Source: Methanosarcinaceae archaeon (GTDB lineage: Archaea; Halobacteriota; Methanosarcinia; Methanosarcinales; Methanosarcinaceae). From it: a stretch of 8,993 bases of DNA. A program made the position numbers and the translations under genes. This document shows, piece after piece, positions 4,561 through 8,993 of the stretch. Below the pieces are notes generated by a model. It ran no database searches. It saw only the letters and a list, made by a program, of their open reading frames with translations, and was not told where the DNA came from. Each line of letters starts with the position of its first letter. The first letter of the stretch is position 1. The DNA is taken from the NCBI GenBank assembly GCA_030596385.1, contig JAUVKD010000014.1:1-8993 (forward strand). Direction: 5' to 3'.

Positions 4561-4620
4561 ATGAATATGAATATCGATGATGGGATATTAGGATTTGGAT
4601 TTACATGAATGCGGGTTTTT

Positions 4621-4683
4621 TATAGCATATAATTTATAAAATTATATATTCCGAGTAAATCCGACTGTAGCGAGGATTTTCTC
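4621..4683 (-). promoter_or_regulatory. Flavin reductase promoter block: TATA tract plus ATCC/GGAT operator-like element (copy A)
   Basis: On the minus strand, the element GAAAATCC-TCGCTACAG-TCGGATTT (about 4657-4682) is followed by ACTCGG and then a TATA-rich tract containing TTTATAAATTATATGC. From 4664 down to 4621 this matches 7459-7502 on the plus strand at 40 of 44 positions. The block ends 60 nt before the ATG, compared with 70 nt for the matching copy before the regulator gene. Seen from the plus strand, the operator part is a loose palindrome, AAATCC...GGATTT. Confidence 0.6.
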
Positions 4684-7290: not shown

Positions 7291-7324
7291 CTATATATAC
7301 GAGTACCACTAACTATAGGTTAGT
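7291..7324 (+). promoter_or_regulatory. Distal promoter of the regulator-cdc48 operon with HSR1-type operator CTAAC-N5-GTTAG
   Basis: A TATA box CTATATATAC (7291-7300) is followed by ACTAACTATAGGTTAGT (7308-7324), a perfect 6-bp inverted repeat around 5 nt that contains CTAAC-N5-GTTAG at 7309-7323. This is the palindrome I recall as the binding site of the Archaeoglobus fulgidus heat-shock regulator HSR1, which is encoded with cdc48 and hsp20. The expected transcription start, 25-28 nt after the TATA centre, falls inside the palindrome, so bound protein would block RNA polymerase. The leader to the regulator ATG would be about 250 nt. Confidence 0.72.
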
Positions 7325-7386
7325 ATCTAAATGGCATGCCTTTTTGGTTACTAACCCTCAGTCTCAGTATGTATTTTCCTCCTATC

Positions 7387-7422
7387 ACAAGTAAATTCGT
7401 GCCAGCGTCTGGATTTACTTGT
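7387..7422 (+). other. Stable bulged hairpin in the leader/spacer before the regulator gene
   Basis: ACAAGTAAAT (7387-7396) pairs perfectly with ATTTACTTGT (7413-7422). Nested inside, CCAG (7402-7405) pairs with CTGG (7409-7412) around a 3-nt loop, stacking directly on the outer stem on one side and leaving a 5-nt bulge TCGTG on the other. It lies between the two putative promoters of the operon, so it would be present only in transcripts from the distal one. No T-run follows, so a simple terminator is unlikely. Confidence 0.45.
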
Positions 7423-7442
7423 CGACTCTGGGTCCTCAATAG

Positions 7443-7502
7443 GAAGATCTCGTTTTGATCGGATTAACTTGTAATATATAATTCTATAAATTATATGCTA
7501 TA
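7443..7502 (+). promoter_or_regulatory. Proximal promoter block of the regulator-cdc48 operon (copy D), shared with the flavin reductase promoter
   Basis: AAGATCTCGTTTTGATCGG (7444-7462), leading into ATTAAC, resembles the ATCC/GGAT operator family read from the other strand. It is followed by a TATA-rich tract ending TATAAATTATATGCTATA. Positions 7459-7502 match the minus strand of 4621-4664 at 40 of 44 positions, in the same orientation relative to the gene. After the block the motif TTATATGCTAT is repeated (7491-7501 and 7505-7515, 14-nt period). Confidence 0.6.
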
Positions 7503-7544
7503 AGTTATATGCTATGAGTATATCACAAAATCAATATGAGATTC

Positions 7545-7572: not shown

Positions 7573-8271
7573 ATGGAACCAGCACAGGTGCTTGACATAT
7601 TGGGTAATAAAAACAGGAGAAAAATTCTCCAGCGTCTGTCGAACCGCCCATGTTATGTCAGTGAAATATCAGGGCGACTCGGTGTTGGTCCAAAAGCAAT
7701 TATAAACCACCTGAGCCTGCTTGAGCAAACCGGACTTATAAAATGCCATGTAGATGAACAGAGACGTAAGTATTTTAATATCGCAGATAACATGCGCCTT
7801 GAAATATCGGTATCACCCCACTCCTATGCCGCATCTGTATATTCTGTTCCCATTAATACTGAATACCACTTAAAGCAGAATCGCAATGAAACGATCGAAG
7901 TACAAAAAGCACATGCTGCATCAGTGCTTGTAGAATTGAATCGTGAAATAAGAAATACGAGATGCAAACAGGAAGAACTCACACGCAAACAACAGGAACT
8001 ACAGATCGAATTCTCAGAACTCATGGATATTTGCATGGATGCAATAGATAAAATTGCAAGCAATCCCCTTCAAGCAGAAATATTACATGCACTGCTCAAA
8101 AATGAACATTGTATAGCATCGTTGTCTTATAAATATACAATGCATCCGAGTCTTATCAGTGCTCAGGTATTAGAAATGGCAAAAAAAGGGTTCATTGAAT
8201 ATACTATAAGAGATAACCAACAATATTGGAAAATAATTGAAACCAAAAATGAAACTGGTAATGAACAATGA
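7573..8271 (+). CDS. Winged-helix transcriptional regulator, HSR1/ArsR-like, paired with cdc48
   Basis: This 232-aa protein has an N-terminal winged helix (about 3-75): [16 protein letters not shown], then [29 protein letters not shown] as the helix-turn-helix, and a wing with QRRKYFNI. The middle (about 108-155) is rich in Glu, Gln, Lys and Arg with heptad-like spacing, probably a coiled coil for dimerisation. The C-terminus (about 160-222) looks like a second winged-helix-type domain ([10 protein letters not shown]...[29 protein letters not shown]). There is no metal-binding cysteine cluster of the classical ArsR type. The stop TGA overlaps the ATG of the next gene (ATGA). Gene order with a Cdc48 ATPase and a perfect CTAAC-N5-GTTAG upstream point to an HSR1-like heat-shock repressor that controls its own operon. 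The family assignment is firm as a winged-helix regulator; the HSR1 role is inferred from context. Confidence 0.82.
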
Positions 8272-8993
8272 GTGAAAAAATCGTTATACGTGTAGCCGAA
8301 GCACACCATCGGGATACCGGCAAAGGAATTGCCAGACTTGATGTGGATTTAATGATAAATATCGGTGTTGTAAGTGGTGACATCATCGAGATAAAAAACA
8401 TGGAAAAAGCATATGGTATCGTCTGGCCAGGATATCCGGAAGATTCAAGGAAGAATATTATTCGGATTGATGGAAACCTGCGCAACAATGCCAGAGTTGG
8501 AATCGATGACAAGGTTACAATTAAAAAGGTTGATGCAAAAAAAGCGAAACGTATAACGCTGGCACCCACACAACCGGTCAGGTTGGTTGGTGGAACTCGT
8601 TATATATTACAAATACTTGAAGGGCGACCAATAGAACGTGGCCAGAGCATAAGAGTTGAAGCGGTCAACAATCCATTATTGTTTATAGTTATGTCAACAA
8701 ATCCCACCGGACCTGTTGTTGTTACGCGAAACACCGAAATAATAGTCAAAAAAAAACCAGTTAGTGAATGCAGGACGACCGAACATATCTCGTACGAGGA
8801 TATCGGCGGGCTCAAACGTGAAATCGAACTTGTTCGAGAAATGATCGAATTGCCTTTGCGCCATCCCGAACTGTTTCGGAAACTCGGCATCGAACCTCCA
8901 AAAGGAGTTCTTCTCCATGGGCCACCCGGAACCGGAAAAACCATGATAGCAAAGGCGGTGGTTTCCGAGACAGATGCTAATTTCATCTCCATC
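8268..8993 (+). CDS. cdc48: Cdc48/VCP/VAT-type AAA+ ATPase, 3' end beyond the window
   Basis: The first 242 codons are present and the frame is open to the right edge. The N-terminal substrate-recognition domain (about 1-165) begins [25 protein letters not shown], typical of the double-psi barrel of archaeal VAT. The D1 ATPase module follows with [30 protein letters not shown] (from 175) and Walker A GPPGTGKT (218-225). Full-length family members are about 730-760 aa with two ATPase modules, so roughly two-thirds is missing. It forms a hexamer that unfolds proteins for the proteasome or for refolding. It is translated from an ATG overlapping the stop of the regulator gene, so the two are clearly one operon. 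In Archaeoglobus an hsp20 gene follows; here that would lie outside the window. Confidence 0.96.

Follow-up and report, generated by a model that had tools for sequence, protein, structure and literature searches.

The operator of Phr, the regulator of Pyrococcus furiosus, holds the elements TTTA, TGGTAA and AAAA. According to the accessible text of PMC9133787, only two archaeal heat-shock regulators are known, Phr and HSR1 of Archaeoglobus fulgidus, and a binding site and a repression model are given there for HSR1. A gene for a small heat-shock protein (sHSP) and one for an AAA+ ATPase belong to both regulons, as stated in the available part of PMC10653856, and the Phr regulon, which includes hsp20 and a gene for an AAA ATPase, is described in PMC10746257 (also available in part). 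Both regulators were placed in arCOG01684 in PMC5852551, the accessible part of which also reports that the Methanonatronarchaeum regulator and Cdc48 are heat-induced and proposes an ancestral regulation.

The window (the whole stretch of DNA analysed, 8,993 nt) carries a promoter and genes comparable with the HSR1 operon, with the following features:
7292-7299, + strand: TATA box TATATATA in what is predicted to be the operon promoter, from the sequence.
7308-7324, no strand: palindromic operator ACTAACTATAGGTTAGT, predicted to cover the transcription start and conserved upstream of orthologues.
7346-7356, no strand: second element GGTTACTAACC, likely auxiliary half-sites (chance expectation 0.10 at no more than one mismatch).
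7573-8271, + strand: 232-aa ArsR-type winged-helix regulator, an HSR1 orthologue by Pfam, NCBIfam, homology, AlphaFold and Foldseek.
8268-8993, + strand: cdc48 (AAA ATPase), truncated where the contig ends and overlapping the regulator stop with its start.

The palindrome at 7308-7324 is probably the operator of an HSR1-type repressor that keeps the regulator-cdc48-hsp20 operon off until stress. Its CTAAC-N5-GTTAG core is perfect at 7309-7323 (CTAACTATAGGTTAG) and pairs one base pair further on each side at 7308-7324 (ACTAACNNNNNGTTAGT), both as stated in the preliminary description, whose distance of 20 nt from the TATA box was about right: 17 nt separate the TATA start from the start of the 15-bp core, and the operator begins 16-17 nt past the start of TATATATA. 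Because of this spacing, the transcript start should fall within the 3' half of the palindrome; the palindrome thus sits at the predicted start, as had been proposed, with the correction that this start lies about 250 nt ahead of the regulator ATG (7573). The 232-aa repressor, encoded 249 nt downstream, is predicted to sit as a dimer on the palindrome, across the transcription start, where it would block the polymerase and shut its own operon (autoregulation), and heat or misfolded protein would be the trigger that releases it. Binding, repression and the heat response of the regulator are what we infer from sequence.

Extra half-sites, in the form of a 14-bp lattice in several relatives and of GGTTACTAACC in ANME-3, could allow cooperative binding. 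Centre to centre, 35 bp separate the GGTTACTAACC element from the operator, a distance that puts it into half-site register with the 14-bp lattice, and it aligns gap-free in the seven genomes of the genus (7/7), its last base varying; a role as extra half-sites is likely from this placement. Site arrays with a 14-bp period were observed in several relatives; locus L017 has one at -102, -88, -74, -60 and -46, and many Methanoperedens loci have sites at -51 and -23, with a further one at -37 in L069.

By homology, the 232-aa protein is an orthologue of HSR1. Its Pfam domains are an ArsR-type helix-turn-helix and a C-terminal HTH_Cmi2_C domain, and its best NCBIfam model is Phr (NF053602), at 86.9 bits against a curated cut-off of 320. 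In the AlphaFold model (pLDDT 84, pTM 0.58) two terminal winged helices are joined by a long helix, and the eight Foldseek matches with E ≤0.001 were chains of Phr and of PF0095, which we take to be SurR, all with low TM-scores (0.33-0.41); the best solved relative by sequence was 2p4w, named P. furiosus heat-shock regulator in the fold search. Aligned with the regulator of genome G149, which we take to be A. fulgidus and its regulator to be HSR1, the protein had 29% identity over 226 aligned positions, along its whole length (E = 4e-38), a homology that extends beyond a generic winged helix, as the orthology put forward in the preliminary description demanded. The operon of G149 (223-aa regulator, 733-aa Cdc48 and 174-aa Hsp20) matches the A. 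fulgidus HSR1 operon order, consistent with the identification, and a search with the G149 protein gave, among the matches listed, an A. fulgidus entry at 84%, A. veneficus (G107) and A. sulfaticallidus (G185), because of which family f9 was read as Archaeoglobaceae. When searched in the window's genome, the G149 regulator yielded one match, the 232-aa gene, and the family profile yielded one match at E ≤1e-18 in G149 among the best 10 of 20 candidates scored. Two Methanosarcina orthologues bear the NCBI name 'Archaeal heat shock regulator, ArsR family'.

With the A. fulgidus HSR1 operon the locus shares the palindrome, its position after the TATA box, a full-length homologous regulator and, in the sister genomes, the operon order. 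It differs in the regulator sequence (29% identity), in a leader of 249 nt in the window against about 40-70 nt in Archaeoglobus, in the extra GGTTACTAACC element of ANME-3, and in the second hsp20, which is siteless in ANME-3, whereas three Archaeoglobus genomes have one with a site each. SurR, the Pyrococcus sulfur regulator, has a similar architecture and length, and its structures 2quf and 2qlz rank beside Phr, but the regulator reached 52.7 bits where the SurR cut-off is 250, and SurR by its model name controls sulfur metabolism genes. Phr has a homologous two-winged-helix architecture (2p4w), whereas the regulator falls below the Phr cut-off and a different operator is described for Phr in the accessible part of PMC9133787.

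The regulator stop and the cdc48 start overlap in ATGA (8268-8271), which fits co-transcription, and the order regulator-cdc48-hsp20 was found in all six sister genomes (6/6, one contig each), bearing out the regulator-cdc48 operon of the preliminary description. In the sister genomes the Hsp20-like gene (open frame of 178-182 aa) lies ~2.8 kb downstream of the regulator and follows a Cdc48-type C-terminus where readable, and the Pfam HSP20 domain was found in this ANME-3 operon partner. In the window's genome hsp20 and the C-terminal part of cdc48 sit on another contig, C189, so the hsp20 linkage is presumed there. The ANME-3 partners matched those of G149 at 62% (Cdc48 fragment) and at 46% over 146 positions (Hsp20). 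Of the 27 Methanoperedens-group loci, 24 have an Hsp20-like gene, detected with a regular expression, behind the regulator.

The preliminary description had suggested looking for further sites at hsp20 genes; the second, 153-aa hsp20 of the genus had no palindrome in the five ANME-3 genomes with a readable upstream region (the upstream region was cut in G003, and G002 gave no match). Because this other hsp20 is without a site, the recognisable regulon comes to about one operon, and in Methanosarcinales generally it seems, from the sites located, to be near single-operon. A perfect palindrome was also observed before a LolA-like lipoprotein gene at L122, L123 and L124 (G005:C190, G004:C113 and G002:C163). 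This gene (348-aa product) has the palindrome upstream in the three ANME-3 genomes with a close orthologue (3/3) and is a possible second target, but conservation seems to extend over its entire promoter region, and the window's genome yielded no close orthologue. A wider ANME-3 regulon was considered; the second hsp20, siteless where its upstream region was readable, gave it no support.

The regulator had been called a methanogen counterpart of HSR1, whereas the genus is ANME-3 and holds the ANME-3 assembly 'Methanosarcinaceae archaeon isolate HMMV ANME3_1' (DQIP01000236.1). ANME-3 archaea are methane oxidisers. HMMV is presumably a cold mud volcano, so that the label points to cold sediment, and because the genus is named from such a place heat is uncertain as the natural signal. 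The same regulator and operator could instead answer to general protein damage, redox or salt stress, or mainly set the Cdc48 dosage, a reading that we judge unlikely, although the cold-sediment label and a regulon of about one operon speak for it and the sequence itself carries no indication of the trigger. A CDC48-family gene of M. mazei, possibly the regulator-linked one, is raised in virus infection according to the available text of PMC9694453, whereas in Methanonatronarchaeum the family member and the neighbouring Cdc48 rise at high temperature (PMC5852551, accessible part), and the operon partner in ANME-3 is itself a small heat-shock protein gene.

Conservation of the site was assessed in 106 regulator upstream regions (80 named loci, 20 of f9, 5 of f6 and the window), which are not phylogenetically independent and in which we ourselves assigned a group to records that carry no genus name. 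The perfect palindrome was present in 69/106, and at least 9 of its 10 bases in 87/106, as is to be expected of an operator shared with related species, on which the preliminary description had staked its proposal. A TATA-like box (at least 7/8 match within 45 nt) was found for 79 of the 87 sites with at least 9/10 bases; it starts 16-18 nt before the palindrome in 68/79 and exactly 17 nt before it in 54/79. By group (perfect / at least 9 of 10 / total), the counts were 7/7/8 for ANME-3, in which the miss is L037, with 150 nt upstream only and a record labelled Deltaproteobacteria; 6/14/25 for Methanosarcina and kin; 2/2/2 for Methanosalsum; 4/5/5 for Methanocellales; 24/27/27 for the Methanoperedens group; 7/9/9 for the ANME-2 group; 1/1/1 for Methanosaeta; 18/20/20 for f9 (Archaeoglobaceae-type); 0/2/5 for f6; and 0/0/4 for haloarchaea, none of the four haloarchaeal loci having the palindrome at 9/10 or better. 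At the haloarchaeal-type locus L195, CTAACCACACGTTAATG overlaps the regulator start codon, perhaps as a degenerate site of a leaderless gene; other such loci are without it.

Other loci of the phylum, outside the 106-region set and possibly in part from the same genomes as the named loci, were perfect in f7 (3/3), f21 (3/3), f30 and f35 (1/1 each), f17 (4/5, the other at 9) and f12 (1/2). In f14 two loci were at 9, one at 8 and one below 8; the three loci of f15 and f34 were at 8, and none of the seven loci of f13, f18, f23, f24, f29 and f33 reached 9.

The site was also sought where the regulator is missing. Eighteen genomes gave no full-length regulator match, and 13 of them were examined; they had 30 CDC48_N matches above cut-off, one of them without upstream sequence, and the 530 nt before the domain match were scored for the remaining 29. 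No site with at least 9/10 bases was found at cdc48 in these 13 genomes (0/29), and a single region had 8/10 (1/29), against roughly 15-19% in most groups of shuffled sequences. The operon may be present in G007, cut at a contig end, a caution that arises because G020 of the same genus has the regulator. From absence in the assemblies we infer a loss of both regulator and site. That a different regulator binds the site, the neighbouring HSR1 homologue acting elsewhere, is very improbable: binding by the 232-aa protein is a prediction, but the site accompanies the regulator gene whether cdc48 or hsp20 comes next, it was not found at cdc48 where a full-length regulator was not found, and binding of this sequence by the autoregulator has been reported for A. 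fulgidus (PMC9133787, in its accessible part).

Genome-wide enrichment of the motif was rejected as evidence, since in most genomes the reversed control pattern occurs at a similar or higher frequency. In the window's own assembly (1.2 Mb, 61% complete) perfect CTAAC-N5-GTTAG occurs once, as the operator, and the reversed control likewise once; with one mismatch allowed, the real pattern gave 4 matches and the control 31. The seven genomes of the genus all carry the site at the regulator operon (7/7), with 4 further perfect sites against 21 for the reversed control; the 11 sites precede the operon (7), the LolA-like lipoprotein gene (3) and a PAS + GAF gene (1). The motif not being enriched genome-wide, what speaks against chance is where the site stands and how well it is conserved. 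Dinucleotide-shuffled upstream regions contained a perfect site in 0 to 0.13% of cases per group (2.5% for a group of one sequence) and at least 9/10 bases in 0 to 2.5% by group, ~2% overall. A chance palindrome without function can practically be dismissed, since the site, for all that the reversed control also gives about one perfect match per genome, is kept at one operon and at a fixed TATA distance across several families.

Specificity was also counted in 15 further genomes outside the genus. The single perfect site of G011, G025, G030 and G034 is in each case that of the regulator, and of the two in G038 one belongs to the regulator. In G016, G192 and G263 a single mismatch at the regulator site leaves no perfect one. 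No perfect site was found in G009 and G013, and G008 and G019, which gave no full-length regulator, hold one apiece, inside open reading frames. The three Archaeoglobus genomes have 4, 3 and 2 sites, of which one in each precedes a second hsp20. In the genome taken as A. fulgidus, two more perfect palindromes (L214 and L215) were observed directly ahead of DUF2178 membrane protein genes.

The distance from palindrome to ATG is 264 nt in the window against 177-182 in the six sister genomes, and the leader contains two more features:
7388-7445, + strand: leader region with two possible stem-loops, no function claimed, the second stem being poor in the window itself.
7441-7504, + strand: part of the leader formed by one copy of a dispersed repeat specific to the genus, from repeat searches.

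Searches with the leader gave 12 matches in the window's genome and, with up to 40 candidates scored in each, at least 17 to 43 in each of the six sister genomes, nearly all of those listed being to the 7441-7504 part; conservation of the whole long leader was ruled out, its 3' part being the dispersed repeat. This short AT-rich repeat (consensus about ACGAGAAAATCCTCGCTACGCTCGGATTAACTCGAACTATATAATTCTATAAATTATATACTATAA) was observed in the window at 7441-7504 and 4620-4664, and in many copies, at times tandem, in all seven genomes of the genus. Elsewhere in the window, positions 1-65 look like what the contig start has left of a tRNA gene, its 3' part with a terminal CCA, where ARAGORN reports none, and positions 911-1464 hold nested imperfect inverted repeats (911-929/1216-1234 and 995-1031/1428-1464), perhaps remnants of a small mobile element.

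The stem-loops upstream of the repeat are moderately supported: folding z-scores of five leaders were -2.4, -1.7, -0.9, -3.6 and -3.8, and pair counts in eight closely related sequences lean positive (both partners changed in 4/22 pairs, and pairing in 80.5% of cells). An RNA thermometer is not claimed, as pairing with the ribosome site was inconsistent between species, and Rfam gave for the leader just three weak microRNA matches, far below gathering scores. A two-level control in ANME-3, in which the cooperative operator lattice at the start site would be joined by a structured, stress-sensing RNA leader, lying between the operator and the start codon and opened by warming, is quite unlikely; if true, the RNA layer would be one that is absent from the descriptions of Phr or HSR1 in the accessible literature.

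The spread of the circuit beyond Archaeoglobus, which the preliminary description had presented, is supported here; it is not new, having been proposed at the protein level in the accessible part of PMC5852551. The family and its proposed ancestry are thus already in print, and what stands out in this lineage is an unusually well-kept promoter-operator geometry. No description of the operator outside Archaeoglobus was found in the literature, in which subscription papers were partially covered. The HSR1 promoter-operator module extends from Archaeoglobaceae to Methanosarcinales, including methane oxidisers, with the TATA distance held within about a base. The new points are this fixed promoter geometry, the near single-operon regulon apparent in Methanosarcinales, the occurrence of hsp20 rather than cdc48 after the regulator in Methanoperedens, and the lack of the site at cdc48 in genomes that gave no full-length regulator. 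Methanosarcina and Methanosalsum, which have orthologues, are relatives suited to direct study of the predicted repression.
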